This document shows, piece after piece, positions 17,051-55,979 of a stretch of 64,000 nt of DNA; the stretch's first letter is position 1; each line of letters opens with the position of its first letter. The stretch is from Diphasiastrum complanatum (lineage: Eukaryota; Streptophyta; Lycopodiopsida; Lycopodiales; Lycopodiaceae): positions 27,044,541 through 27,108,540 of the forward strand of contig CM055094.1 in the NCBI GenBank assembly GCA_029204225.1, given 5' to 3'. The notes beneath the pieces were generated by a model that was not told where the DNA came from, made no database searches, and saw only the letters and a list, made by a program, of their open reading frames with translations. The translations under genes and the position numbers were made by a program.

Positions 17051-17288
17051 CTTCATTAGGAATGAATATAGAAGCTAGAACATGAAATTTAGATGACAAT
17101 GCATGCACTATGTTACAACTTAAGAGCTTCACCCTTAATGATCAGATATTGTGAATGTGAGCGAACTTGTCAATATAATCTTTCCTACTTTGATTTAGCT
17201 GGAACGGCTCTCCAACGCAAGCAACAACTTGCAAATCTAACTTAGATTCTATTCTTGCTATGAAAATCATCTAGCCCGAAACACTTAC
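17051..17288 (-). other. Start of the intron (or truncated end) after the first WD40 codons
   Basis: Directly after exon 2 the minus strand reads GTAAGTGTTTCGG, a strong donor; the open frame runs only 15 more codons to a stop near 17242. No WD40 exon is visible before the LINE at 17050. Either the remaining exons lie left of this window, across a giant TE-filled intron, or the gene is truncated. Confidence 0.6.
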
Positions 17289-19814
17289 CACAAGTAATTA
17301 AAGCGGTGACAGAATCTGAATGGCCTTTGATGTTTGTTACCTCCACTGCGTCCAAACCAGATTCTTTGATGGCCTCTAGTGCTCCAATTGAGAAGTCTAT
17401 TCTTGAATCTTCATATTCATCAGGACTTGACGTATCCCTTTCCACTAGGTTTTCCTGATGTTCATCCCATTGTTGGATAGGCTGGGAATTATCACGAATA
17501 TCAATGCCGTCACCAAAAAGGCCTTCCAGACCAAAGCACCACAAGCTTGATGCATTTGATGGAACTTGGACTTCACCTGCACATAAATTCTCGGGCAATT
17601 CCTCACTACCGAGGCATGATCTCAATACCTTTAAAACATGCCAAAGCTCCCGCACTTCTGGTCTTTTCTCTGGCTCCATTTCAAAACATTTCCCTAAAAG
17701 ATGTTGCAATCTCGAAGATTTGTCAAGTAGCAAGCTTTTCTCATGAAGATCAACAGGGTTGATGCAATTGTTGAAATCTTGCAGATCATGGTCATAATGG
17801 CACCAAGCATCTGGCTTTTGCTTTTCAATTAAAACTTTTTGAAAAGTCTCTGAAAAGGAAAGGCTTTCACTTATCTCTGCAGCTGAAAATAGTTGAACCA
17901 AAGAGTAGGCCAAGGACCAAACATCTGCTTTTCGAGTGATAACCATCAGCAATTGTTTTATGCTGCAAGAGGTAGCTTCATCATCATATTTCCAGTTCTC
18001 GTTTTGAGAACTTGAGAGTACCGGCATGGATCTCTTTCCTTTTCTTCCAAAGATATCCAGCATTTCAGGACTGACAGACTGCCACAAAAATTTCAAACTC
18101 TTGTCAATTGGAGTTCCTGAATCTAAGGGCAAGATTGATTCATTCTGCAGAACACCTAGAGACTCCGGAATCAAAGAGGTCGAGTTCTCCCTTAGAAACT
18201 GATATAGGATCTTCCTGAAATGTAGCAAGCTTGCTGCATGAAGCATAACATGGTCATACTCATCAACAGTAACACAATGCAATCCAAAAATCCCGACCGT
18301 GATGCCTTCAGAGTGTAATTCCATAACAATCTCACACAATTCCAACGCCCATTGTACAATCTCTATCAATTTTGAATGCAAATGCCCTTCACAGCCATCT
18401 CTGCTATTGAATGACAAACCTCTTAACTGCTTTGAGGCAGTCAAGTGCGAGGTGTTGGAAAGTTCTGTTTCCCCAATGGACTCAATACCCTGCCCTCCAT
18501 CTGCCGGGGATGAAAACTCTGAATCAGCTTTCTGAAGGTGCTTTTCTCTGGAGACACTTTAAAGTTGAAATACAAGTCAAAACTTTAATCAAGGCTGTTC
18601 ATACCTGCTGCTTCTACCTTATCCACGCTCTTGTTTCTGGCAGTCGGACAATTATTTGACTTCCCCACTGTATCTGCTTCACCAAAATGTTTCACATCCA
18701 TGCTGCTCCTTTTGGACATGATCCTTCGCCAAATGCTCTGAGATTCACCCTCTTCTGAAACTTTACTGACCACAAAAAGGCACCCCTGTTCACCTAACCA
18801 CAAGCCAATAATCTGACACATACATTTGCAAAAGAACGAAAGCCTCAATAATAAAAGTAATTCATTTCTCATCATTATGCTTAAATTCTTCCAAACAGAC
18901 ACAATCAACTCCTTGTAGCCAGCCTCCTTATCTCTCTCATCTGAATCTGCAGCTCCGCTCTGTGCATGACGGCTATGGCCAACTTGTAGCAGAGACACGT
19001 TGTAAGACTTGTGTCGTCCGCCTTCGACAAAAGAAAATTCACCAACCCGAAAATCACCATTCGTGTAGGAATGAGAACCTTCTTTCAACTTTATAGCGCT
19101 GTGAGGTATTATTGACGGAATTGTTGATGGTTCACCATCCATTTCCTTCTCTGTATTAACCATGTAAAATGCAAACCCTTCTAGCAAGTTTCCAACCCTA
19201 ATTTCATCTTTCGAAGCCGATCCATCCTCCTTAGCTCTAAGCTTACCAAATGATCGTAATGGCTCGGGCGATTTCGAATTTTTATAGCAATTACCGCTGC
19301 TTTTGCCTGCTTCAGTTGGCTGAAATATGCCACTGCCGTCCAGCAAAGGTATACTGTCATGCAAATTCCCAATACACGAAACTTTCTTTTGAACTTTTGA
19401 TCCCACTTTTGCTTCTGCCGTCCGCATCTTTAAGCATCCAAGCAAGCGCAAGAGCTCGATGTTCTTTGGCAGCCCTAAATAGCCCTTGTAGGACAACCTT
19501 GTCCACTGGCTGCATTCCGGGCATCGCAACAATGAAGAAGCAGCAGAAACAGAAGCAGATGAAGAAGAAGAAACCGAAAAAGAGGCAGATGATGCTGAAG
19601 AAGAAGCAGAGGCAGCAGCAGCAGCAAGGGCAGATGGATTGGCTGAGGATGAGGCGGCATCGTGAAGGTGTATGGGAAGAGTTGCGATGCAGCTCTGACA
19701 AAGAGAATGGCCACAGTAGAGAACCCTTGGAGCATGTTGGGATTCATCATATTGCTGAAGGCATATTGCACAAGAGGGTAATTCATCATCATCATCATCA
19801 TCATCATCTTCCAT
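17289..19814 (-). CDS. RING / kinase-like / WD40 protein (5-prime exons only)
   Basis: Two exons. Exon 1 runs from ATG at 19814 (MEDDDDDDDD; another in-frame ATG lies at 19826) to 18605. Exon 2 runs 18545-17289. A 59-bp GT-AG intron (18604-18546) joins them in phase 1. The RING is CAICLQQYDE, YCGHSLCQSC, then RCPECSQW, with an Ala/Ser-rich insert of about 60 residues before the last Cys pair, followed by LPKNIELLRLLG. A kinase-like region follows (IIGLWLGEQGCLFVV; IVMELHSEGITVGIFGLHCV; KADVWSLAYSLVQLF; CFEMEPEKRPEVRELW), without an HRD or DFG motif, so probably a pseudokinase. Exon 2 ends in VTNIKGHSDSVTALITCG, the start of a first WD40 repeat, at a clear donor GTAAGT. This architecture matches a plant family with a RING, a kinase-like domain and WD40 repeats (Arabidopsis AT1G21651 type, from memory). 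Role: probable ubiquitin ligase. The WD40 exons are not in the window; the next sequence downstream is the LINE and its nested elements. Confidence 0.8.
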
Positions 19815-19844
19815 TTTTTTTTTCATTGCCCTCTTGATTTTTTT

Positions 19845-19950
19845 CACAAATGATCATCCATCATCTGATTTTCACAAATGATCATCCAGCACTAGCACTT
19901 TTTGTTCTGGAATGATTCTTTTCACTTTTTGTTTTGGAATGATTCTTTTC
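19845..19950. repeat. Short tandem duplications upstream of the RING gene
   Basis: TTTTCACAAATGATCATCCA occurs twice (about 19843 and 19870). A CTTTTTGTTYTGGAATGATTC unit occurs at about 19898 and 19926. These lie in the expected promoter or 5-prime leader of the gene on the minus strand. Confidence 0.8.
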
Positions 19951-21883: not shown

Positions 21884-22001
<118 letters not shown>

Positions 22002-27839: not shown

Positions 27840-29150
27840 ACAAGCTTGCCAAAGTCAACCTTTTAGACAAGTACTAAGCTCACCAACCGCAGCCATATTG
27901 AATTTCCTAAATACTTTCCTTGCTTTTAAAATTGTAAAGCACATCTCATCACATTCACCATGAAACATAAGTCTTTCAAGCACATATCTTTGAAAAACCA
28001 TCATTCTTAGCATATATAGCAGTCCCTTATGTGTACATGAGCTATATAGCATTATCGGGTGAGAATACCATTCATACCATTGTTAAACATATAGCTTCGT
28101 ACATGGATGTGAGTCGAAGACATTTCTTGTGAGCTACCCATCTCCAACTGCTCAAGCGAGACCTCCCTTACGTACTAATGATCTCAAATTGAAAATAACG
28201 GCTTAATGGTAGTGTCATTTCCATACTAGAGTGTCTTATTTCCAGAGTGGTATTAGATTAGCCAAGCATGATTCTTTAAAAAGGAAGTAGTAGTGGCATC
28301 AAGTGCCATAGAATGATTCCTTTATTGGTTCCTTACTTGCATTCCAGCACATCTATCAATATTACTCTGAGTATCATTTTGTTCAGGGTTACTACCAAAG
28401 CCTCATAGAAACTTCCTTAACTATGACTAGAGATAGCCGTTTATTTGGATAGTTGTATGACCATACATCTATCATGTTCATTATCATTATCAAACAGTGA
28501 TACACAGATACATGCGCAGCCACATGCCAAGTATTAGTCAACACGAAAGGATCGTTCATCACAATCGCTTGAATATACAACACTTTCTTGTCTCTACTAC
28601 AAAAAAAACGTCATGTAGAGAAAGATTCCATCGCATTCAGGATGGTGGCCCATCACGCTTTTAGCATGGTGTTGTATATCATCATTACGTAGTTATAAGC
28701 AATGCGCTACTGGAGGTGCAATCTATTTGCCATCCTAATTCCGCTGGCCAACATACCATTTGAACGAGTATGAATAGCGTATATAGAATAGCGACTATTC
28801 ATCAACTGACTATTCACTGTCAAGCAACATCATACCAAAGATGTAAATGGATATCATACCTGTAAAATCATTTTTAGGATGCTCTTGAGGCAGTGCCCAA
28901 TCGTGATTGCTTCTGTTGTGCTTTTCGACCAAAGAAAACTCTATCTATCCATGATTATCATAGCATAAGTAAGCTTGATCTCATCCAGACTATCCAGCAA
29001 GTAAAACTTATCATTTATGAGCAATCATTAAGCCAAAAAATAGATAGCAATCATACCTCAGCTTGTAGTATCCTCCACACGAATACTCTTCCAATAGAAT
29101 TAGCAAGTATCCTCTCATCCAAGTAGAAACGTTCGTAGTAGAGAGAGGAA
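27840..29150. other. No recognisable gene
   Basis: AT-rich sequence with short frames only. CTACTACAAAAAAAACGTC at 28595 loosely recalls a CACTA-type terminus, but I found no partner. Confidence 0.45.
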
Positions 29151-29158
29151 ACAAGAGG

Positions 29159-29160
<2 letters not shown>

Positions 29161-29249
<89 letters not shown>
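29161..29249. repeat. (GA)n microsatellite
   Basis: About 43 GA units with one early interruption. Confidence 0.97.
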
Positions 29250-29250
<1 letters not shown>

Positions 29251-29551
29251 ATGAAGAGTGAAACTTAGGTTTATGTAACTTTCCTACATATAGAAAATCC
29301 AGCACATCTATGTGTACTGGTGCATCTTAGTGCCCACCGTTAGATCATATCCTTATAATGTGCACTTATCATAGCCAGTCAAGGAAAACAAGTTTCCCAC
29401 CAAAGGATTTCTTTAAAAAAACTTTCTGAGGGGATCATATTTCCAAGTTTAATAAACTAAGGCATTAACGTTGGTATGGTATCATAAGCGAACAATCTTT
29501 CCATGATGCTTCAAAGCTGGAATAAAACGTAATGCCCATACAATAGAGTCC

Positions 29552-29726
<175 letters not shown>

Positions 29727-30169
29727 AGTGACTACTCTTGAAACTTGAAATTGATTCAACTTGATGATGAATAAAATAAACTAATCTATTGATCTATTTA
29801 TAGTTGTTGATGGCACAACCCTCACAAAATGCGGTATTATTCATCTGGTAGGTGCCACGTGGAGATATGGGATTGGACCGAAAATGTGTAGTGGATAAAG
29901 ACTCGATAATCAAATATGCTAAAGTCATTATTTGGAACCCTCGAATAAGTGTTTTAGATATCTCCGAACAAGTAAAACTGTAGAGTAGTTCCACATTACA
30001 AAATGATTTAAGGAATGAAATCCAACACATATGACATTTCGATGAGACTGGTTCAAGCATTTTTCTTTGACACATCATGACAATATCATTCATATTACAG
30101 ACTCTAGCACTCTTAAGATCAAAGACAAAGAAATACTCACCATCAGATTTGATGATGGTTTATCTTGAC

Positions 30170-31440: not shown

Positions 31441-31451
31441 TCCAGGTCTGC

Positions 31452-31500
31452 ATTAGAGAAAATATGGGCCCAAAGAGGGCCCTATAAGAAATGCCACGTA
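31452..31500. repeat. Junction word shared with 45071-45160
   Basis: ATTAGAGAAAATATGGGCCC, continuing AAAGAGGGCCCT and a nearby TGCCACGT, resembles ATTAGAGAAACTTAGAGCCC with AAAGAGGGCCTT and TGCCATGT at 45071. In both places it lies just beyond a truncated Copia reverse transcriptase. Confidence 0.55.
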
Positions 31501-31655
31501 GGAGAGAGAAAAATAACTATAAAGTAATTATAATATCATTTTCTAACTTCTTTATGCATATGTCCGCACTACTTTCTATGTAAATGAATGCACCTTAGAT
31601 TAGTCACATCAAACTTCACTGGTGCTTAACCGTAGTTAAAATAATAATTTTCAAA

Positions 31656-32490
31656 ATGCTAAAATATTCCCTCCCAATAGTTGGGAACACTAAAAAATTT
31701 GAATTAGGAGTGACATTTTTGAAACAAAGCCTACGCCATCTCTATCTCCAAGATCAAAAACAAGTGTTTGGCACCATCTCTATCTCCAGTAGAGTTGTTA
31801 GCGCCATCTCCAGCTTTCTTACTATCATTTCGTTTTTTCGTTACTATACTAATGTACTGATGACAAAGCTTTATCATCTTCATGTGGATCTGTCACCAGA
31901 ATATGCTCCGCTTAGGACAAGAAATTCAAAGCAACCCAAATTGTCAACTTCTGATATGGTCCGATATAGGGAGGAAAAGCTAAAGCATGTAGATTTATGG
32001 TCATCAGGAACATTGTATCCTATTGATCCATGTTCATTGCAACATCCAGATTTTCATTCGATTAGTGGGTTAATAATCTATATGTGTCATGGTAAAATTG
32101 GCCTTTTGGGTTACTGTGAGAATTTGATGCTCTATGGAATTGCACATTCAATGCAAAAAAATACATTATTTGGAAGAGGAATCAAGGAAAATATCAAAGG
32201 AGTGCGAAGAAAAATCTACAAAGTTGAAAACTTGTTTGGATAGAAATGAGATGCTCAAGAAGGAGATCCAAAGGTTGAAATCTTCTTTGCATCATTATAC
32301 AACTTGTAATGATGAGATAAAAATTGCATTTCAATCCATGCGTATCTCATATTTGTCTCTTGTTAAAGATATGGATGTGCTCAACAGAAAGGTCCGAAGC
32401 AATAAGAGGAAAAGACTGGTAAACAAGGATATATGTGATCTATCATCTAGAGGAGGTCATAGAAAAAAACGCATCCATGCATTCAAGTAA
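31656..32490 (+). CDS. Unknown protein fragments, second part coiled coil
   Basis: Two overlapping frames, 31656-32243 and 32134-32490, may be one gene broken by a frameshift near 32150, since both contain the same local sequence. The first has no domain I recognise. The second is rich in Lys and Glu with heptad-like spacing (EESRKISKECEEKSTKLKTC, LKKEIQRLKSSLHHY) and ends in basic clusters (SNKRKRLVNK, GGHRKKRIH) that could be nuclear localisation signals. It sits between a Copia fragment and a Ty3 element. It may be a passenger gene of an unknown repeat or a decayed host gene. Confidence 0.35.
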
Positions 32491-33155
32491 GTTATAGCTT
32501 ATTTGGTATCGAATAATGCTTGAACTTTTTGATTCATTCATAATCACTAATTTTGTTATTTATTCATTTCAACTTTCCGTTGATTTGCTTATTATATACT
32601 GCTGCGAATACTATGAGTGTCCTAATTTCTACTGACATTTTCATGAACATTATGTTTGCAATGCAAATCATCACCACCGCCCTCGGTCACTGACGACCAA
32701 CCCTCAACTTCAGCGCCATATCCAAATGTGAGGGAAGAAAGAAGACAGTACCAAAAGATACGACACTGTGTACAGAAGGCACAAGCGGAGGAAAAAGAGC
32801 AGGATAGGGACAATTCCACGGAACCTTTAGTTGGCGGCGAACAGGAACCACAAGCGGGCTCACAACTATGCATTGATCAGAATGATTGATTGCACCAACA
32901 TGAACTACCTTTTCACATGGTGGAGCCCGAGGAACGATGCACTGAAAGGCTCACACTTTTACTGGCAAGTCGTGTTAGTTTACCACTTGGGGAACTATTG
33001 CGGATTGCACAACAAGCGAAAAGCCTTCTAGTTGAATGGGCCAAAGCAGAAGAGGAGCAGTAGTGCTTGAGCCCATATATTATACGGGCTATAAAGAAAC
33101 AAATAACGTCCTCCACATCGGGGCAGCATGAGAAAGTGAAGAACACAACATCACT

Positions 33156-39997: not shown

Positions 39998-40042
39998 CCG
40001 GCCGAGTGCCGAGGGACCGGCACTACTTCAGGCCATGGGTCC

Positions 40043-40855
40043 TGTTGGGGGTATTTCCAATGAATCGTAAATAAATAAAATCAACTAATAAAATGTGTTG
40101 CGAGGACATGACATCCTGCGCGCATAAGCCCATGGCCCAATGAGCACGCAAGCTTAAGTTGTAAATAAAATAAAATAGACTTGGGCCTTTGAATTAAAAT
40201 AAAAGTAGAGGCCCAAAGTCATTTTTAAACTTAGAGATTACTTTTTAGAGTTGGGTCCAAATTGGGACTTACATGAATCTTGTGAATTTCAATGTACTTT
40301 TTGTGGACCCTTGGATCAAGTTGGGTCAAAGATAAATGGATAGGATCAATGTAAATACTAGCCAATAGGATTTTGGGGCAAGGGCCTTTCCCATTTTATA
40401 AAAAGGCACCATTTGTACTCTATTTGCATGCTTAATAGAGAGGAGGAGACTCCATCATTTTGAGAGCTCAAGCATCCTCATTTGCTAATCACTCTTGCTT
40501 ATGCTATTGTTGTGGTTGCTTGTTATTTCCATTTTCCATGCTTTTTGTTTATGCTAGTTAAGGTTTTTCCATAAGCAATGAAATTGAGCATTTGAGCTAA
40601 CCTCCATCTCATCTCTCTCTCTTTCTCTCTTCTCCTTCTTCTTCCTCTTCTATTCTATTCTTTCTCTTCACCAACAATCATGATGAAGTTAGTTAGGGGA
40701 GTAGAGTTAGTGTGAGTAGTGTTAGGGGAGGTAGAATTAGAAGAAAGGAGAAAACTAACTAAAAGTAGCATCTATGCATAGTTAGGTACCTATCCAGTGA
40801 ACTAACCCTTGTTGACAGGTGGGAGGGCTATACTACATAGATCTTCGACCCTACA
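40043..40855 (+). repeat. Gypsy-D family LTR, plus orientation (813 bp)
   Basis: TGTTGGGGGTATTTCC to CGACCCTACA, with TG...CA ends. The reverse complement is at 55159-55974. A tRNA primer site does not follow (ATTTCTTCTC instead), a polypurine tract does not precede, and no 5-bp duplication flanks it. It could be a truncated element end. It contains TTTATAAAAAGG near 40396, a TATA candidate, and a CT-rich patch near 40612-40660. Confidence 0.9.
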
Positions 40856-42059: not shown

Positions 42060-44260
42060 TTAGAAGTGTCTAAAAAATCCAGCTACAAACAAGGAACTTT
42101 TGAGACTCCAATAGAGAATGATGTCCATGAAGGATCTTTCACCACTTCTTAAAGGATCCCTTACAAGATGTTCCATAAATGTGTCTATATACATGTAGCA
42201 CACTTCAAAACTAAACATCACCCCAAGCCACGGATTCAAAGACATTTTGTGCACTTGAAGATACATCAATTAAACTATTAAGTGCATACTTAATATTTCC
42301 AAAAACAACTTGCCTTGCTTGATTCATATGATTGAGCCTTGATGACTCCATCTTGATAGTCATGGTTCTTCTTGGAGTCCTCGGGTCTTGAGCTTGTTCC
42401 TCCACTTGACTTGACTCCAAACCATCAACGAATTGAATAAGGTGTTGATCAAGGTGCTTCTTCAAGTTTACAAATATTCCACTCTTGAAAGATCACATTT
42501 CCACCATTGACAACTTCTTTGATGGAAAACAAGTAGATTCTACAATCTCTACTTAAAGAGCAAAACACTACCATTATTCCTATAATTGCAATAGGATAAT
42601 CTTTGGTCCTTACATTGGAATGATCATGCTCAAAGCATGTGGACCCAAAGATTTTCAATACAAATGATATTTCAACTTTTAGGACACTATTTAAACTATT
42701 ACAAAAATAGTTATCCAATGAAATTGATTTATCAACAACAAATGGAGATTTGAAAGCATCTATTTTCATTGTCTTGTCATACAAAGTACTAAACATCATA
42801 TATCTTAAAGATAAGCAACAAGTCACTCCATGTCTACTAATACACTCCATTTTCATAGTCTACTATTCAAAGATAGTAGACTCTCCAATGCTAACCATCC
42901 TTGCAAGATGCACACTCGAATGGACAATTTGCATGCAATTTGATGACTCGGCCATTTTCATTGAGGAATCCCTTGGAACTCTCATGCTTTGAGGCTGATC
43001 CTCAAGATCTTCCTCCTTTTGATGCTCCTCCTCAATGCAAAACACTAGCTTCCAACTTAAATAATCTTCCATGTTTAAATCCCTTTGCAATGCAAACATC
43101 ATTCTTCAAAATGAAACAAACACCATGCTTAAAGTTGACATCCAAACCACTTTCTATGAGTAGACCAACACTAAGCATATTCTTGGTGATTGATAGTACA
43201 TAAAGGACATTTTCTAGGTCCATACTTATTGAGAGTTCTAGACACAAAGATATGGTACCAGCACCATCTATCCTACACTCTTCATCACTTGCAATAAAAA
43301 CAAAATTTTCAGCATCTTTGAATGAGTGTAAGGTTGAGAAAAAGTCCTTTTCACAAGACATGTGGGAGCTAGCCCCACTATCAATCCACCATATATCTCG
43401 TGAATTGCCATTGATTGTTGGTGAGGATGTAGATGCCATCAAGAATACATCTACTTCATCCTCCTCCTCCTCATGTGCAAGGTTTTCTTTTTTGTCCTCC
43501 TCCTCTTGTGCCCTTAGCCTCTTGTAGCATTCAGATGCATAATGCCCCTTCTTTCCACAAAAGAGGCATTTTTGCTTTGACTTGTCCTTTGAGCTTGATG
43601 CATCATCCTCTTCTTTGGCCTCCTTTGGATGCTTCTTCTTTCCATTGGTCTTATTTTTTTCCTTGAATGATAAATTGGCTTTCTCATCTCCATCCTACAA
43701 AGACAATAAACTCACTATTGCCTTGGTGTGGAGCATTCCACACTTTTCAAACACTAATACATTGTGAAGTTTTTCTATAGTTGGCAAAGTGTCTTGAATG
43801 GCAAAACTTTGGACCAAATTTGCAAAGTCATCTCCTAGACCATTAAGAACAATTTGTACAAGCTCTCCATCTTGAATCTTCTCTCCAATGGAAGCCAACT
43901 CCCTATTTAGAGACTTGATTCTAAGCACATAATTATGTGCACTTTCATCACTTCTCTTCATGCTTTGTAAACTTTGATTTCTAAGCATCGAAGTGTTACT
44001 AGATTCATAGGTTGATTTTATAGAGTTCCAAGCCTCTTTAGCACTAGTACATGCGATACTTCTCTCAACAAATCATTGCTTACATTCATCTTCACACAAT
44101 GAAGTGCAAGCCTAGATCTCCTCTTGTATCTAGCTAACTCCTGTGCACCTAGAAATTCATCTTCATCTTCAATCAGGAACTCATAAAGGTCTTGGAGTGT
44201 GGATATGGTCTTGGATAAATCTGCGATAGCAGGTGTCTTGATCAGTGTTAGGGTTTTGGA
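42060..44260 (-). pseudogene. Copia-2: gag, zinc knuckle, protease, integrase part
   Basis: On the minus strand from 44260 down: LQDLYEFLIEDEDEFLGAQE, HNYVLRIKSLNRELASIGEK and LVQIVLNGLGDDFANLVQSF (UBN2-type capsid). Then a zinc knuckle C-LFC-GKKGHYASEC (about 43570-43530), then the protease active site WWIDSGASSHMSCEKDF (about 43395) with LENVLYVLSITKNMLSVGLL. After a gap come FGSTCFEHDHSN and IYLFSIKEVVNGGNVIFQE, matching the Copia integrase C-terminus. Catalytic integrase and reverse transcriptase are lacking. It lies antisense to the Copia fragment at 44925. Confidence 0.82.
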
Positions 44261-44924: not shown

Positions 44925-45080
44925 ATGAAGCATCCACTAGAGAGGTATACTTCTCAAACTTTCTGGCTAGCAGTAGAAAAGCCACCTATTGTTCAAGATG
45001 CATTATCGAATGAAAAATCTGATATGTTAATGGCAGCAATGGATAGTGAATATAATTCACTAATCAAGAACCCATTAGAG
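44925..45080 (+). pseudogene. Copia reverse transcriptase N-terminal scrap
   Basis: PIVQDALSNEK, then MAAMDSEYNSLIKN, is the well-conserved start of a Copia reverse transcriptase (EALSxxxW..AMxxEYxSLIxN). The sequence then changes abruptly at about 45070, at the junction word shared with 31452. Confidence 0.75.
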
Positions 45081-45400
45081 AAACTTAGAGCCCAAAGAGG
45101 GCCTTTGAAAAAGATGTTCTTTTTAATTTTTTTTCTTATTTTCGTTGCCATGTGGACCAATTGAAACCTTGTAATCGGGATTCTACGTAACATAGAATTT
45201 TTCAAATATAAATAAAATAAAAACTTTTAAAATATATTGCTGTTTTGTTGAACAACATGTGGAAATGCTATTGGTTGATGAGGCCTGCCCTTTCAACTCA
45301 TCACTGCCCGAAGAGACCCAAAAATATTGAAAATGAATATGACAAATGGTTGAGATGAGAAAATCGATGTACCATTAATGTATATGCATTGTCAAATCAT

Positions 45401-45417
45401 GGTTAACAGGGTTAACC
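45401..45417. repeat. GGTTAAC inverted repeat upstream of gene A
   Basis: GGTTAAC-AGG-GTTAACC is a perfect 7-bp inverted repeat with a 3-bp centre, about 150 bp before the first ATG of gene A; another GTTAA follows at 45421. Confidence 0.7.
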
Positions 45418-45553
45418 AGAGTTAATTCGTGACACCAAATAGATCAGTGTTTCAAATTTACACCAACACATTTTCTCAGGTTCATGGCTTTTTGTCTACG
45501 CAAATTTTCATATTCATAGTTCATTGTTTCGAATTTTTGCATGCACATTACGA

Positions 45554-46919
45554 ATGGCACCATCAAGGAAGTCGTGCTCCTCAATCGACTATGTGCTTCT
45601 ATTCAACAAGACAGATGATAATGGATTATGGGTGCCAAGAAAGTATTCAGAAAACTCTTGGGCTTTCATGCATCCATCATCAAGAGGAGCATTTCAAAAA
45701 AGCAAAAGGTCAAAACTATCATTTCAATCTTATTGGAAGGCCAGAATTTTGGATTTCAGAACATCATCAGGAGAAAAATCTATTTTTGAAATTATAGTCC
45801 AACATGTATATATGCATTCAGAGATAAATGTGCAAGGATTCAACCGTCAGGATCACAAAAAAATCAACTATGAGTATTGATATTTTTGATACTTAGATTT
45901 TTGTCATTCATAAATATCTAATAGTAAACTTACCAATCTGACCATTTTCTCTTGCAGATTTATATCCATCCAACATAAATGAATAGGAGCCGAGTGGATT
46001 TTTAACAAGTGTGTTAGATGTTATTCACACTGATATTGGACAACTGCAATATCGAAGTAGAACTGCAAAAGATCTAGTTGATAGTTGGATCTTTTTTTAT
46101 GAATCAATGTACACTCCTGATACAAAAGAAAATTTTGGACAAATAGTACCAATTCTACTACTTAGTTTTGAAAGTGATGAATGGATTTCACCAGATGCTA
46201 CAGTTTCAAAATCATTTCGTTGCAAGATATATAATGATGTAAAAAAATTCACTAAAAATGAGCACGAGATCAAAAACAATCAGATAGAGTTGGTTTATTT
46301 TCTTAAATATATTTGTGGGTTTCTTTTCAAGTGTCAATGTACACAAAATCCCAATGATGTTTGTATGCAAAAGTTTATCAGATAGTTTATTATCTGAACT
46401 TATGGATGAAGGCTGAGACAAAAGATCAGATGGAGAAATAGAACGCAAAATTAAAATGTCTTCCATGTGCTTCCGTTATCAAATTGAAAAACAAATGTTG
46501 AGTTTATGCTTCTAGTATCAAAAATGGAAAAAAAATAAAGGTAAATGGGTGTTACTCGATCAAGACTTGGAAGCCAGTGGACATTCAAAACGAAAAAATA
46601 TTGAAATTATATACAATGTTGTCGTTTTGATGTGTGTTGAGGTGAAAGAAGATTGGAGTCTAAATTACATCAGGCAGAAACTATTGCTCCTACAAGATAA
46701 TGTACTTTCAGACTTCAGATTCATTTTCAATGGTAAACTCGTAAGTAACTATAAACATTCGATCTTTTATGAATAGTTTCAATCAAAACTTTCTAATACA
46801 ATCTCTATACTAATTGTAGCTCACTTTGTATTAGTTTTATGCAGGTACGTAAAAGACATGAGTTCGAGATTTACTATCAACAAATACATGCCAATCATCA
46901 TGTCTTTTTATCAATATAG
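45554..46919 (+). pseudogene. Gene A: unknown intron-containing gene with possible ubiquitin-like end
   Basis: ATG at 45554 opens MAPSRKSCSSIDYVLLFNKT, through YSENSWAFMHPSSRGAFQKS. A likely intron runs from about 45874 (GTATTG) to CTCTTGCAG at 45957. Coding continues as SGFLTSVLDVIHTDIGQLQY and YESMYTPDTKENFGQIVPIL, with a TAG near 45985 and a frameshift near 46375. A final part reads ASGHSKRKNIEIIYNVVVLM, VKEDWSLNYIRQKLLLLQ and SDFRFIFNGKL. A clean intron (46741 GTAAGTAA to GCAG 46844, 104 bp) leads in frame to VRKRHEFEI and a stop at 46917. The last ~60 residues have the V-x-V...IRxxL...FxFxxNGxxV pattern of ubiquitin-like folds; that is only a suggestion. It is convergent with gene B. Confidence 0.5.
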
Positions 46920-47169
46920 AAAATTGCATTCCAGTATTACACTATGGACACAACTTGATTGTAAGAATCTATATTGATATCAATAAAAAAAAAAAATCCA
47001 TAAATGGGTTGTTTACATATAAAATGATTGTATTTTTTATTTATTTATCTCTATTTACAAATAGGTCTCTATCTAGTCAATTTTTCTGTATTTTTTTTTA
47101 TCAGTATTAGGAACTGATAAGGGAACAGCTCTTTCTATAATCTTGTCTTCCTCTATTTTGGGAAGGGCC

Positions 47170-49162
47170 TCAGTCAAGAGGACTCTCTGTTATAATATAG
47201 CCTTCCTCTATATTAGGAAGGATTTCTATTCTTTTTTTATCATATATAATAAGATCTGTATCCTGAACAACCTGAAAGGCTGTTAAGGTAGGAGCAGCTT
47301 GTTTTTGAGGGCCCTCGATCTCAGGTGCAACGCTTACACCGTTCTGGACATAGGTTCTTATCAACTCTTGCCAAAATCCATATACATCATCAGGAGTATA
47401 CGGCTCAAGAGTGAACTATCATCACAAAATACAAGAATCAGCAAATTACAAACAATGATAGTAAAGAAATATGAATCAGAATGAATACAAATGAACAGAA
47501 TATTACCTTTTCAATATTTACATTTACTTGTAAGTAATACCACTCAAAAAATAACTTCGTATTGTACAGGACGAACCATGCACAACTAAAAGCGTCCTTT
47601 TGTTGTACACACTACATATATAGAACGAAAATTAGTAATATTATGATAGAAAATTCATTTATGCTATGATGATAGATTTGAACTTAAAAAAAAATACATG
47701 CATATCAGAGATAAATTGAATATACCTTGAGAGATCTAATGGTTATCTCTCCAATTGAGGTTGTCGTTGTCGGTATTTCCCGAACGGCATCATGAAGTAG
47801 AGAATCAAATTTTTTATGTGTATTTGCAGCTGAGTTTAATTTTACACATAGAAAATTTGATACTCTCTCTTTATTTATCTTTACAAAAAGATTATTCAAG
47901 CTCCAATGTCGATTGCAACAAACAAAATATAGATATCGATATATCCATACTTATGAAAGCAATCCTTACTTATTAAAGCAATGCCGCATGCAACAATCCA
48001 GATTGAAGCAACAAAAACAAAAGAGCAATCCTTACTTATTTTCATATGGAATCAAATAGAATTTCGTCACAGGACTGCATTCGATAAAATATATAGCCTT
48101 CTCAAAATTGGCTTCTTTTGTCTTTATCGTTTCTATGAAAAAAGGACTAACAGCAAAAACTATACCATGGGAATCAGAACTAATACTTTTTTAGCAAAAA
48201 AGATCCTCCGGCTTCTACTATTACATCTAAAATTTCTGAAGTTTTATCTTTCAGCTTGGCACAAAATTTGGGACCTAATCTAAAGCTTTTACGTGAATTT
48301 GGAAGAAAAAAATCAAAAAAATTGTCGAGAAGATCAATTTTATTAGCTAGGTAGGTCTCGTACTGGTTATAATGGTCAGAATCAAAATATACTTGGGTAG
48401 GATCGTATGGAATTCTAAAAAAAGATTATATACATGAGCTAAAAAAGAAGCAGATACAATATTTACAGATTTTTTTGTTATTTTGTCGAGCTCCTCTTGG
48501 GTAATCAACACTTTTGGTGAAGAAACCTGCTGAGGAGCTGGACGAATAACAGGAGGAGGAAGGGGTGATGATTCTCGATCTGAATTAGATTCTCCAACAT
48601 CTGACTCAGAGCTCAAGACGATCCGAGGTCTCTTGGCCGGGATAAATCTAGGAGAAAAAGAAGCAGTTGGCCTTCGATATCCAGCCTTCTTGGAGACAGA
48701 CTACTTCCTCTTCCTCCTAGAGGTAGTCGACAAGTTGGTTCTATCCAGAGGTAGGTCTCTGGAGGTACTGGCATTATCAACATGTAGACTAAAATAACGG
48801 TCCCGAAGTCTTCTGAGAATGATGAAATCTTTTGGCATGATGGTGACACGCTTACCATGCACTTTCAAAAGATAGGTATCTTCAAAAAATCGGGACAAAA
48901 AATCTTTTGCAGCACCCTGTAAGGCCTGCATGGCTGTCACGACAAAATGAACATTTAGCCCAAGTGACAGAGTGACATTTCTTACAGATCGGCCGAAAGG
49001 AGCTCTAGGAATCAACAGTTCAATTGATCTTTGGAGTTTTCTAATCTCTCTCAGTCAAATCTGCTTTCAGCCACGTCTACGGCCAGTACCAGGGGGAATA
49101 TGGGCATGGGATGGCTGTACAGTGGGTATGGCATGGGCAGTGGATTTGGTCTTGGCCATCAT
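47170..49162 (-). pseudogene. Gene B: histone H3-fold fused to Ulp1-type (C48) peptidase
   Basis: From ATG 49162 the frame reads MMAKTKSTAHAIP (compare the H3 start MARTKQTA), then LREIRKLQRSIELLI, RAPFGRSVRNV, VVTAMQALQGAAKDFLSRF, FEDTYLLKVHGKRVTIMPKD and ILRRLRDRY. This is a full H3 fold of canonical loop-1 length. A basic SRRKRK and a Pro/Ser-rich linker follow. After one or two frame changes come VFAVSPFFIETIKTKEANFE and KFYLIPYENK, then RHWSL (47908), KKFDSLLHDA (Asp near 47805), an intron 47725-47612, and CVQQKDAFSCAWFVLYNTKL (Cys near 47583). These match Ulp1 His, Asp, Gln and Cys sites. A further intron, 47506-47416, leads to FTLEPYTPDD. Both introns are GT-AG and phase 0. Stops: two TGA in the H3 tail-to-alphaN stretch and one TAG after SRRKRK. 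A product could bind chromatin and cleave a ubiquitin-like modifier; that is inference. Confidence 0.75.
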
Positions 49163-49264
49163 TTTGAGAAGAAAAAAATTAACAAAAAAAGTCTGAACAA
49201 AAGCGTAGGGAATGAAAACAAAAAAATTTGCGAGAAGGGAGGGCTTGAGATCAATACCAGAACT

Positions 49265-49421
49265 GAATATCGGTTTCAAGTGCAAGATATACACAGAATA
49301 TTTTAAGAAACGAGATGCGCGTTCAAAAGCGATATTGGACTAACAGTGGTATCGGTCTCGAGTGCACTGTGAGAAGGTGGACGATTAAACGGTGTAAGAG
49401 CGCGCTTGAGAGTGATATTGG
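49265..49421. repeat. Leader motif array, gene B side (4 copies, alternating)
   Basis: Minus copy 49265-49283 (GCACTTGAAACCGATATTC), plus copy 49317-49338 (ending TTCAAAAGCGATATTGG), minus copy 49348-49365 (GCACTCGAGACCGATACC), plus copy 49402-49421 (GCGCTTGAGAGTGATATTGG). Each minus/plus pair spans 74 bp and the pairs are 9 bp apart. Spacers inside the pairs are not alike, so only the motif is conserved. Confidence 0.85.
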
Positions 49422-49800
49422 GTGTGAAAACCGAAAATTTTGCAAAAAAAAATGAAATTTTTGAGGACTTATATATACAAAATTTTCGCACGTGTGAAAA
49501 GACGACAAAATACATGTGTCATCATCTGATTGTTCCATGTGGAATGTCCGTACTGACAATGATGACCTCATTATGAGGCCACGTGGGTTGAGACACGTGC
49601 ACGAATATCTTTTCGACGCGTGTCATTCTCGCACATGACAGATGTCAAATTAATCATTGTCTGTATGACGGCGTATTAATTCTGACCAATTATACGTTGA
49701 CACGTGTTTCTTCATAACTACTCCACACGTGCAATTTTTTTTTTTTATAAATAGGTCATTTTGGACTCGGATTTTCATGCAAATTTTTTATTTCTTGGAC

Positions 49801-50023
49801 GGATATCGATTTCAGGCGCGCCATTTGCATTGATTACCCTCCGTTGACTAACTTGCGCTTGGATCCGATACTGCCTCATCCAGTATTCGCATTCAAGTGC
49901 GTCTTACATCTCCTTTGTTCACGCACTCGGATCCGATACTCTAATTTCTAATATTTCTTTCGAGCGCACATTTTCTTGAGGTTCTTGCCTGACCTACAGT
50001 TTGCGCTTGAGAGCGATATTTGG
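49801..50023. repeat. Leader motif array, gene C side (6 copies, alternating)
   Basis: Minus 49801-49819 (GCGCCTGAAATCGATATCC), plus 49855-49873 (GCGCTTGGATCCGATACTG), minus 49881-49900 (GCACTTGAATGCGAATACTG), plus 49923-49941 (GCACTCGGATCCGATACTC), minus 49950-49967 (GCGCTCGAAAGAAATATT), plus 50003-50023 (GCGCTTGAGAGCGATATTTG). Pairs span 73, 61 and 74 bp with 7-8 bp between pairs. The array ends 28 bp before the gene C ATG. Confidence 0.87.
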
Positions 50024-50051
50024 AATTTTACATTTGTAGTTTTTGATTAAA

Positions 50052-51527
50052 ATGTCTAATTTTCATTCTAGTTTGTTTTTTTTTTTTCATGAATTTGGTA
50101 TTACTGATAGTTTGGAGTATTTCAAATATATATATTTTTCTTTTCTTTTTATTCTTCCTTCTATTATTGAGGGTCTTGGTGTGGAGACATTTTCTGAGAT
50201 ATATCTCAGGTTTAAGTCTCTACTCAGTACTCCATTATTCAGATCTCAGAATAAAGACATGATTCATTATCAGGACCTAGTGGCACTCGACAAACATATC
50301 TATAAAGCTAAGCTTGACAGAATATTCACCAAGTTACATAATGATTTCAAGTCTGTAGACGAGTGCCCAATTCACAATAAAAAATGTAGATTTGTTGATT
50401 TTCAGTCTGCATTTGGTTTTTTTTTTTTTTTTGTTAAATATTTTTGACGATTCGAAAGTTGTTTCTTCCAGTGGTACAAAGTCTAAAAAGTCAAAAATTG
50501 TAGATATAGATACTTTTTTTTATTGTTACGAACGTTAATTTAGATGATTGTTTAGATTTTGATCCTGTTCAAAATAGGTCATCGTTTATAGGCCCTAGAA
50601 CACCCACTACCCTTTCTCTTTCTGATAAATCTTTGATCATTTTGCCTACTTATAATATAGATAAAAATTCGTTTTTGACAACATCAGATATATCGGATCT
50701 TTTTTATTTCACTGAAGCTGAGACTCTTTGCATTTTGAACAAAGAGCTTGATGAATTTTCGGATATAATTGATTTTAATGTTGATGATCTTCTCCCTGGT
50801 GTTGACGATGTACATAATGATAAGTTTTATTTAGGGAAAGATTGCATGAAAATGGTTGTGGAGGAAATGCGCAATAAAGAAGATGATCTACCTTCTGAGA
50901 CGAAGTTTCTCATAAATCAAGGTCAACTTGGTTTTCCTCAACCAACTGTCTATTCACCAACAATATTGACATCAAAAAGTGGACATAATATCGATGGAGA
51001 GACAGTAATTAGGGAAGACAAAGTCGAATGCGTAAGTTTTTGTATCTTATCATGTACTAGTAGATTCTTTATGTCAGATTATATATTGGAGCTTACTTTG
51101 TTTTTTATCATTTTAGAAAACAATTTTTCTTGATGATTTTGCAATTCGTCGAGGAGGGCAGAGATCTTTTGCTGAAGAATTTTCAAGAGATCATGCACTG
51201 GGGCACTATGTAAAGTTCTTCAAGAATAATGAGATAAAAGTTGCCCATTCAAAGTTTCATCAACATGGTGAGACTATGATTATGGCAATCAAGGCACTGT
51301 CTCATTTTCTTGGAGGACATAATTTTAATAAGGTGCATAGAATAATTTTTGTAAAAAAAATAATTGCACTTAAAATTTTAGGATATGGACCAATGAATTT
51401 CCTATTCAGATCATCTCATTTTGCATTGTATGCTGCTTACGTTGATCTGAGTAAGCATGAAAACTATAAACTGTTGGATTCATACAAAAGAAGAAAATTG
51501 TTGTATGATTCTAAATTGCAACTTTAA
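50052..51527 (+). pseudogene. Gene C: unknown intron-containing gene divergent from gene B
   Basis: ATG at 50052 (AAAATGTCT) opens MSNFHSS and ITDSLEYFKYIYFSF, then EGLGVETFSEIYLRFKSLLS and HYQDLVALDKHIYKAKLDRI. A poly-T expansion near 50418-50432 shifts the frame. Coding then continues as VSSSGTKSKKSKIVDID, a stop near 50536, and a long acidic frame (KSLIILPTYNIDKNSFLTTS, ADVDDLLPG-like FNVDDLLPGVDDVHNDKFYL, MVVEEMRNKEDDLPSETKFL). A GT-AG intron at 51032-51116 (85 bp) leads to TIFLDDFAIRRGGQRSFAEE, ALGHYVKFFKNNEIKVAHSK and AIKALSHFLGGHNFNK, open to 51527. I do not recognise the family. It shares the divergent promoter with gene B and is convergent with gene D. Confidence 0.5.
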
Positions 51528-51649
51528 TTGGAGAAAATATTGGAAGCAGAGTAGATACTACTGAATTGTACTCTGTAAATATTTTTATTTAATATACAAA
51601 ATTTTATTGTGTGTCTATTGCCTACTGGCTTGTATAAATTTGCATGCTT

Positions 51650-53190
51650 TTAAAAAAAAATTATAATCCATCGATTTTGTATTATGATGAATTTGGATTC
51701 TTTTGTATGACCATTGGAAAAGTTTAGTATATAGCTATTTTTTGTGCTAGTCTTGTCATGTTGTGTACTTTTATGAAATGTCGCTCTTGCTTGCCAATGA
51801 GATTTTTTCATTCCTTGCGATGACCATGTGCTAAGACTTTCACTATTTCTTGCAAAGAATGTGGAATGATGTCGTAATATGTGATGCATGTCATAGAAAC
51901 ATAGTCTAAATCAGTACCAAAAGTATCTAATTTAATTGCACATATTTGTCTATAGTAGTGTAACATCGAAATCTTACGATATAATGTGTTATATGATCAA
52001 CAGCCCATGCACTTTGAACTGCATCCACAAATTCACTGGTTGTTTTCTGTATCATTTGTACATCAATATTTGGAAATTTATCTTTTCTCAAGTATTTCAC
52101 CATGTTGTCTAACTTTTTCCAAACTTCTACTTTGTGTATACGAGTAGTACCTTCTTCTTCGAAATCTTGAGTTGCTGCAATAATTTTTTTCCAAACCGTG
52201 TATTGAAACTTGGATTGTTTGCCTAAATAATTTGATAAAAATCTTCGAGCTTTGGATCCTCCAATGCTCGACTTGCATGAAATATTTCATGTTTTACCTG
52301 ATAGCTTGTCGTATTTTTTTATTTTAATGTGGCCTTTATGTAAGCCTGCTTTGGACAACACATCCTCTAATCTGGAAATAGCTTCCTTCGTAAAGGCCTT
52401 TGGCTCGGAATTCCATGCAAACAAGATGTGAAGATATATTATTTTTTCTATAATATGCACCTCCACATGCAATGTACAAATATGAACATTTTGAAGAGAA
52501 ATCGGTAGTACAGGTTTCCAATTAGGATCTTCTCGATCTCTTGATATTCCTGTACTCCTTGTCATGTCTTTTGTTATTTTCATGCAGTACAAACAAGGGT
52601 GTTTAGAGTTAGCATCATGAGATACATTGAACATACATTTTAATGTCTTCAGATCTCTTGCTAAATGCCATTCAATGTTGAAAGTGCCAATTTTAGAAAT
52701 ATTGAGTGGAAGTCCCTCCATGTGATTTTTTATGGTGGCAAGATTTCAGACTCATCTAACTTGAGAACAACTATCAACTTGTTATTGACATTCTCATTTG
52801 TAATACTGTAAAAATTTATGATGAATGTTAGTAAATGATTAATGTCAATAAATAAATTGTTGGAATTGTTATAAGCTAAAATTTCTCCTTTCGAGCAATA
52901 CACTTCATTGGATTACCAACTATTTTCTACATACCTTGGTTTAACATGTCTTTTTAAAAAAAAAAAGATGAAATGGTCGTGGGATTGGAAACTTTTTAAT
53001 ATTTACATGTGCAAATGCCTCCTTTATCATCTTAAACATTGTTACATATGCTTCCCTACTGATGCTAGAAAAGTCACATGCTCCCTAAAGCAATGTAGTG
53101 TCTAATATTTTTCCAACTTCATCCATAATGCTATCAGTATTTGAAGCCTTGATCTTTTTCATTTTGTTATTGTTTAACATTGATTTCATA
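51650..53190 (-). pseudogene. Gene D: transposase-like protein with C-x2-C motif
   Basis: On the minus strand from about 53190: GACDFSSISREAYVTMFKMI and HVNIKKFPIPRP, then KLIVVLKLDESEIL. The frame 52721-52287 reads FNIEWHLARDLKTLKCMF, NSKHPCLYCMKITKDMT, WKPVLPISLQNVHICTLHVE and HILFAWNSEPKAFTKEAISR. Further frames read SSIGGSKARRFLSNYLGKQS, VEVWKKLDNMVKYLRK and FVDAVQSAWAVDHITHYI, ending SESLSTWSSQGMKKSHWQAR and TFHKSTQHD. The order (LxxDLKxL, HPCxxC, PLxPIxLxxVHxxxLH, late G-(L/M)-E/K-K-x-H-W) recalls a large unnamed family found in mobile DNA of algae, oomycetes and cnidarians, from memory. I cannot name the superfamily. Frameshifts and a stop make it inactive. Confidence 0.5.
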
Positions 53191-53269
53191 GATTTAGAAG
53201 TCAAGATAGAGCCTAGTGAGTTTCCAATGTGGCATTATTGCTATAGCTCCTTGTAAGACCTTCAGTTTC

Positions 53270-55158: not shown

Positions 55159-55974
55159 TGTAGGGTTGAAGATCTTGCGTAGTATAGCCCTCTCGTCTGT
55201 CAACAAGGGTTAGTTCACTGGATAGGTACCTAACTATGCATAGATGCTACTTTTAGTTAGTTTTCTACTTTTTGTCTAACTCTACCTCCCCTAACTCTAC
55301 TCACACTAACTCTACTCCCCTAACTAACTTCATCATGATTGTTGGTGAAGAGAAAGAATAGAATAGAAGAGGAAGAAGAAGGAGAAGAGAGAAAGAGAGA
55401 GAGAGATGAGATGGAGGTTAGCTCAAATGCTCAATTTCATTGCTTATGGAAAAACCTTAACTAGCATAAACAAAAAGCATGGGAAATGGAAATAACAAGC
55501 AACCACAACAATAGCATAAGCAAGAGTGATTAGCAAATGAGGATGCTTGAGCTCTCAAAATGATGGAGTCTCCTCCTCTCTATTAAGCATGCAAATAGAG
55601 TACAAATGGTGTCTTTTTATAAAATGGGGAAGGCCCTTGCCCCAAAATCCTATTGGCTAGTATTTACATTGATCCTATCCATTTATCTTTGACCCAACTT
55701 GATCCAAGGGTCCACAAAAAGTACATTGAAATTCACAAGATTCATGTGAGTCCCAATTTGGACCCAACTCTAAGTAGTAATCTCTAAGTTTAAAAATGAC
55801 TTTGGGCCTCTAGTTTTATTTTAATTCAAAGGCCCAAGTCTATTTTATTTTATTTACAACTTAAGCTTGCGTGCTCATTGGCCATGGGCTTATGCACGCA
55901 GGATGCCATGCCCTCGCAACACATTTTATTAGTTGATTTTATTTATTTACAATTCGTTGAAAATACCCCCAACA
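55159..55974 (-). repeat. Gypsy-D 5-prime LTR, minus orientation (816 bp)
   Basis: Minus strand: TGTTGGGGGTATTTTC to CAACCCTACA. It is nearly identical to 40043-40855 with few changes by eye, including GACAAAAAGTAGAAA versus AGAAAGGAGAAA. The flank beyond (GAAATTCTC) gives no matching target duplication in the window. Confidence 0.92.
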
Positions 55975-55979
55975 GAAAT

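Follow-up and report, generated by a model that had tools for sequence, protein, structure and literature searches.

A histone H3 fold joined to a C48-like peptidase domain in a high-copy DNA transposon of Diphasiastrum complanatum

The window analysed here, a stretch of 64,000 nucleotides within contig C3 of the 1.74 Gb genome of Diphasiastrum complanatum, carries on its minus strand (49162-47155) a broken four-exon gene coding for a histone H3 tail and fold, a linker and a Peptidase_C48-like domain. This gene is a dead copy belonging to a high-copy plant DNA transposon. The pairing of H3 and C48 is confirmed as real, and is not a matter of adjacency, and both the H3 fold and the N-terminal half of the C48-like domain have been under purifying selection during the spread of the element. 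Selection and architecture together favour a function. The one that we infer from the sequence, with a probability of about 55%, is that of a transposon protein that would carry a SUMO-protease-like domain to chromatin, with the H3 fold as its anchor, and would keep the element transcribable or mobile.

The element copy that contains the gene is aligned with the longest copy examined (C577, about 9.92 kb, an insertion that is also carried by contig C8) in three blastn blocks, 53226-52743, 52744-46866 and 46870-45073, at 86-92% identity, and is devoid of the first ~1.4 kb of the element. The features of the window that belong to this element family are as follows.

45073..53228 (-): copy of a DNA transposon of ~10 kb, 5'-truncated (blastn with the C577 copy)
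45073..45103 (+): terminal inverted repeat at the 3' end of the element, CATTAGAGAAACTTAGAGCCCAAAGAGGGCC inward (located by search)
45990..46776 (+): what is left of the second opposite-strand gene, close to the 3' end; it holds a faintly ubiquitin-like stretch (E=0.026 for Pfam ubiquitin, under the cut-off)
47155..47415 (-): exon 4 of the fused gene, C-terminal part (FTLEPYTPDDVY...; join visible when the 14 copies are aligned)
47507..47611 (-): exon 3, in which VQQKDAFSCAWF supplies the putative Gln and catalytic Cys (alignment, spliced copies)
47726..47912 (-): exon 2, with RHWSL and FDSL for the putative catalytic His and Asp, within the Peptidase_C48 match of the joined exons
48036..49162 (-): exon 1, broken here (alignment of 14 copies; Pfam)
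Parts of exon 1 (-), from the alignment: H3 tail 49162-49055; H3 fold 49054-48797; linker to about 48440; C48-like N-half to 48036
50040..51527 (+): what is left of a gene on the opposite strand, belonging to the same element (ORFs; like frames in copies; Pfam matches below cut-off only)
51650..52745 (-): remains of a transposase-like gene (WHLARDLKTLKCMF..PCLYCMK), collinear in other copies
31451..32670 (+): second copy of the same element family, a 5'-end fragment (blastn, 93-96% to positions 2-1351 of the C577 element)

The exon model of the fused gene is based on the alignment of 14 copies. Exon 1 is a single long frame, in which (M)MARTKSTARAITTVQPSHSRVPPGTGRRRGRKQVW-LREIRK... leads into the fold, followed by the linker (SRRKRKQPVPKK ... 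SSESDAGESDSDRESS), with one basic and one acidic serine-rich stretch, and by the first peptidase-like half; exons 2 and 3 contribute RHWSL, FDSL and QQxDAFxCAWF, and the encoded protein has at least about 540 residues. The motifs noticed in the first-pass annotation, namely MAKTKSTA, LREIRKLQRS, FEDTYLLK and GKRVTIMPKD for H3 and RHWSL, FDSL, QQKDAFSC, SPFF and FYLIP for the peptidase, are all present on the minus strand, and the two phase-0 introns through which it had joined the last exons (47725-47612 and 47506-47416) indeed run from GT to AG in the window. When the 14 aligned copies are counted by eye, the donors of these two introns are kept in 12 and 9 copies and their acceptors in 12 and 11, respectively, and the acceptor of the upstream intron (48035-47913) is AG in 12 copies and AA in the window and the C2 copy. 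An extra intron at about 48466, our first assumption, was abandoned, as this stretch is coding in other copies.

Besides this lost acceptor, the window gene has two stops ahead of the fold, one behind it and a frame-shifted stretch in the C48 N-half. Other copies are better preserved: three of them (C577, C10 and C18) have an exon 1 without interruption, and codons 36-300, from the fold to the C48 N-half, are devoid of stops and gaps in six of 19 copies (C577, C10, C2, C18, C12 and also L007, whose tail does contain a stop). None of the 14 spliced copies is without stops or shifts over all four exons, and in C577 and C10 a stop lies right behind the Cys.

A TAG between the H3 part and the linker in the window could suggest that two neighbouring genes have been taken for one. 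This explanation is extremely improbable, being refuted at the DNA level by a genome search with a junction query (251 residues, from the C10 copy): all the 150 loci scored among 8,217 first-look candidates, some rows of which represent one locus on two contigs, show a match that stays in one frame and covers 232 residues or more. The reading frame of other copies runs across the junction without a break, and the matched stretch is stop-free in 37 of the 150 rows by our own count. The 22 H3 loci that were fetched, including that of the window, were selected on H3 similarity, C48 not being a criterion, and contain the near-duplicates L007/L008, L013/L014 and L003/L006; the linker and the C48 N-half are found downstream in all 22, exon 2 in 20 and exon 3 in 19, a deletion bringing exon 3 closer in L011. 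As these loci were picked by their H3 part, the junction query is the stronger test. The single fused protein of a mobile element that had been proposed from the window alone is thus found again in 150/150 scored and 22/22 fetched loci, and its homologues are fused rather than separate genes. The idea of a mobile histone-protease is testable, in that many other copies in the genome keep both parts joined.

Comparison of loci shows that the shared unit starts with CATTAGAGAAA and ends with CTAATG. Its ends are imperfect inverted repeats of 31 bp, with 25 of 31 positions matching between the two ends of the C577 copy. CTAATG is present at the 3' end of 7/7 copies compared, and CATTAG at the 5' end of the C577 (and C8), C13, C2 and C15 copies and of the second-copy fragment, at window 31451; deviant 5' ends are ATTAG in one C14 copy and CTTTAG in the other, and the C3 copy is without CATTAG. 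Dispersal is extensive: the H3-part query (117 residues) gives 6,896 first-look candidates and matches all the 150 loci scored, at 100% for the window itself and 79-90% for the others, and a query made of the 5' terminal 140 bp gives 1,462 candidates, of which the 40 scored all match at 97-100%. The element is therefore a class II DNA transposon, on account of its 31-bp inverted ends and of many dispersed copies, with 150 scored loci per query. By eye, no target site duplication is seen in the five insertions with both ends (C577 = C8, C13, C2, C15 and the C14 copy at 31.13 Mb), which could reflect either duplication-free insertion or rearranged ends.

The hallmarks of CACTA/EnSpm elements are CACTA termini, a 3-bp duplication and a Transposase_21 or DUF4216/DUF4218 domain. 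The present element has CATTAG termini, no visible duplication and no Pfam match to Transposase_21, DUF4216 or DUF4218, and was not assigned to this superfamily. A hAT element with H3L was also rejected, no hAT family being among the Pfam matches and the H3 being fused rather than separate, as was a Mutator-like element of Kaonashi type, since no MULE family matched the joined transposase-like protein with an E-value of 1 or less. The termini of PlavakaB (CATCA..TGATG; PMC12730594) resemble the CATTAG..CTAATG of this element, and this likeness is a lead only.

The transposase-like gene lies upstream of the H3-C48 gene on the same strand, and an ORF containing a coiled-coil-like stretch lies ahead of its protein. 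No convincing Pfam family was found for this protein, nor any PDB match at E up to 1, so that its putative role as transposase is deduced from position and size. The faint ubiquitin-like stretch (46519-46773, plus strand) lies in an opposite-strand gene of the very element in which the C48-like domain is found; it did not recur, no Pfam family being found for the version of the opposite-strand gene joined from copies.

The H3 part is Histone H3 (PF00125) by a significant profile match, and is closest to H3. The histone fold seen in the first reading is borne out by a Pfam Histone match at 49054-48704 (-) with an E-value of 3.4e-20 (73 bits, cut-off 26.4), and by matches of 4.9e-23, 1.3e-24 and 1.9e-23 in three copies; CENP-T_C also scores in this part, with 28.6 bits against 28.1 in one copy. 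Solved H3 chains match the H3 part of the window at 1.7e-19, the best PDB relatives among the matches listed are H3 types, and a five-copy profile finds its best match in an H3.1 chain, at 8.6e-25 and over the tail as well. AlphaFold gives a pLDDT of 43 for the H3 part of the window with no alignment supplied, and this model was set aside.

The majority H3 core is identical to plant H3.1 at 46 of 86 positions, gap-free, and single copies are identical at 39-45. Both the H3-specific tail start and the C-terminal residues of the four-helix bundle are present, the roles of H3 residues being assigned here from general knowledge: ARTKSTAR retains tail residues 1-4 and 6-8, and H113, K115, V117, T118 and K122 are kept in 19/19 copies, D123 in 18, R72 in 17, R69 in 16, R49 in 15 and R116 in 14. 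Changed residues are R63, which is Pro in 18 copies, R83, kept as Arg in 9 copies and replaced by His in 8, and L126, which is Ile in 19. The element protein thus has the fold, the gap-free core identity and the tail start in common with plant H3.1, and differs from it by a tail replaced from K9 on, by Pro at R63 and by a long C-terminal extension with the peptidase-like domain. LLIP in place of LLIR is reminiscent of plant CENH3 and could hint at a CENH3 origin of the H3 part, but loop 1 is as long as in canonical H3, and H3.1 is its best match in the PDB.

What bears on this origin is a second, apparently high-copy H3-like family. A search of the genome with the plant H3.1 core finds 13 host H3 genes in full length (97-99%), ten matches that are partial (79-93%) and many further loci at 51-59% (150 scored among 6,086 first-look candidates), and by eye none of the latter was found among the places matched by the H3-part query. 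One locus of this second family (L045, C17:36125700-36126950) ends directly behind the H3 fold, its open frame running upstream of the fetched stretch, and neither linker nor C48 was found in ~0.8 kb downstream of this one copy. It has LIPRAPF and VHGKRVT in common with the fused family. The H3-like repeats of this genome are therefore not always fused, whereas in the family of the window each tested locus is.

The C48-like domain is the weaker half of the fusion, and is C48-like as judged by residue order, spacing and a marginal profile score. The H, D, Q and C occur in order (HWSL..FDSL..QQxDAFxC) and are invariant in 5/5 aligned copies, with the Gln six residues ahead of the Cys, as in the host SENP8-like protein; His, Asp, Gln and Cys have catalytic roles in such peptidases. 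The Peptidase_C48 (PF02902) domain claimed in the first-pass annotation is upheld as a match, but one that stays under the curated cut-off (20.7 bits). Taken singly, the exons of the window give no Peptidase_C48 match in the Pfam search, the joined exons score 15.3 bits (E=0.018), three spliced copies 19.1, 16.0 and 14.3 bits (0.0013, 0.011 and 0.036) and the majority sequence of five copies 19.9 bits (0.00073), so that none reaches it, and we therefore name the domain C48-like and do not file it as a PF02902 member. No other Pfam family was found in this stretch of the majority sequence.

Direct comparisons speak against C48. With hhalign, the SENP8-like protein of the genome is matched at a probability of 0.5 percent (E=0.12, effective depth 1.2) over the QQ..C part only; a PDB profile search with the C48-like part returned two chance-level chains and no C48 structure; in a plain alignment the His is not placed opposite the host His, and the residue behind the Cys is Ala and not Gly. 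A PF02902 family search of the genome gives three matches, none at the places of this element, which from their translations appear to be host SENP8- and ULP1-type genes. The host SENP8/DEN1-like protease gene (L034, C5:76129325-76129789) is a single open frame of 257 codons with a PDB match of 3.5e-37.

Selection was assessed in 19 copies by comparing the changes common to two or more copies with those private to one, as site counts and not on a tree, with neutral weights of our own choice (transitions double, CpG sixfold). L008, which duplicates L007, was omitted, and the near-duplicate pair L003 and L006 was included, which shifts some private changes to the shared class and thus works against the contrast. 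In the H3 fold, the nonsynonymous/synonymous counts are 29/27 for shared changes (0.39 of neutral) and 51/18 for private ones (1.02; Fisher p=0.015), and in the C48 N-half they are 70/40 (0.63) and 174/54 (1.15; p=0.019). Shared nonsynonymous changes are depleted and private ones are near neutral, which points to past selection on these two parts. No such contrast is seen over the same 19 copies in the linker (71/35, 0.77, against 79/31, 0.96; p=0.46) or in the tail (32/17, 0.59, against 26/14, 0.58; p=1.0).

Transposons are known to carry single chromatin or ubiquitin-pathway genes. Each half of the fusion has precedents in transposons, and for the fusion itself none was found in searches of open-access literature; the first-pass annotation likewise knew of no described protein with this pairing. 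Its remark that H3 folds are normally not carried by transposons needs correction, since a hAT DNA transposon of the fungus Pyrenophora tritici-repentis carries a histone H3-like (H3L) gene, described there as a separate ORF in 26 copies and with no peptidase (PMC3538342); here, in contrast, the H3 is fused to a C48-like domain, no hAT domain is recognisable and up to 150 loci were scored per query. That plant DNA transposons carry C48 was rightly stated, and such domains are described in transposons of plants and animals: CACTA elements have Peptidase_C48 (PMC8978399), Ginger1 has Ulp1 or OTU, and Mutator elements have Ulp1 (PMC2836005). These elements share with ours a C48 domain on a DNA transposon, but the word histone does not occur in the main texts of the two papers, and no Pfam transposase of these groups was found here, where the termini are CATTAG. 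Fungal transposons with a TET/JBP dioxygenase, interpreted as silencing escape, likewise have a chromatin-modifying type of protein on a DNA transposon, and differ, as described, by the enzyme, the host and a separate gene (PMC12730594). Viral histones have also been described (PMC9145170), and a viral origin was considered and rejected, no relatives of the H3 part or of the transposase-like exon being found in IMG/VR by scans that reach close relatives only.

In the function that we propose, the H3 fold would pair with H4 and/or via its own H3-H3 surface and would thereby keep the protein on chromatin. There, the peptidase-like domain could strip SUMO or a related tag off silencing factors, histones or the transposase, and this removal would leave the element transcribable and mobile; the action would probably be directed against silencing. 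A histone fold and a peptidase-like domain in one protein, selected during multiplication of the element, would allow an element to act directly on its own chromatin. A single protein is enough to test how elements escape SUMO-linked silencing, and the fusion shows that even H3, one of the most conserved proteins, can become a domain of a parasite's protein. A more specific form, which we hold to be unlikely, is that the transposon makes a nucleosome subunit of its own: this H3 variant, equipped with a SUMO/ubiquitin-like protease, would be assembled into, or held at, the chromatin of element copies and would strip silencing tags in cis, as a self-carried epigenetic shield spread across a plant genome.

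The fusion could instead act inside the transposition complex, where the histone fold would serve the transposase as a module for DNA binding and dimerisation while element proteins would be processed or stabilised by the peptidase-like domain, silencing not being the target. A role in transposition has been suggested where Ulp1 or OTU accompanies the transposases of Ginger1 and Ulp1 that of Mutator (PMC2836005), and the same element here has a transposase-like gene and the gene with the faint ubiquitin-like stretch. The ARTK start and most of the H3-H3 interface residues are nevertheless kept, and would be needless for a mere DNA-binding module; this explanation is likewise unlikely. It is rather doubtful that the protein acts as a decoy, its H3K4-like tail or fold titrating readers, erasers or chaperones and its C48-like domain being a degenerate, inactive remnant. 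The tail residues retained in ARTKSTAR and the marginal peptidase score would fit such mimicry, but the C48 N-half has been selected in its own right (0.63 shared against 1.15 private), the H, D, Q and C of the C48-like domain are invariant in the five aligned copies, and the constraint on the tail is equal in shared and private changes.

Passive gene capture, in which the H3 and C48 pieces would have been taken up and copied without use, has the backing of the transduplication of host pieces by plant transposons (discussed in PMC3538342) and of the 0/14 spliced copies intact throughout. The depletion of shared nonsynonymous changes in the H3 fold and the C48 N-half, with private changes near neutral, and the retention of splice sites in most aligned copies argue against it, and we consider it quite improbable. 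The chromatin-anchored SUMO-protease-like protein remains the reading that we prefer.

Other sequences surround the element in the window. The H3 region is flanked by an LTR-like pair in opposite orientation, 40042-40855 (+) and 55159-55975 (-), 96.6% identical over 818 columns. A large-TIR transposon with these inverted repeats as the ends of a 16 kb unit was rejected: the repeats start with TGTTGGGGG, and TGGCGTCGTTGCC comes after the right one, which resembles an LTR and its primer site; they are presumably inverted LTRs. Copia-type remains adjoin the element at 42600-44100 (-), with Pol_BBD, Retrotran_gag_2 and a weak SH3_retrovirus match. Two simple-repeat arrays, at 21886-21999 and 29140-29728, match each other, and two long ORFs at 17242-19853 (-) look as if they belonged to a host gene that combines RING and kinase-type parts.
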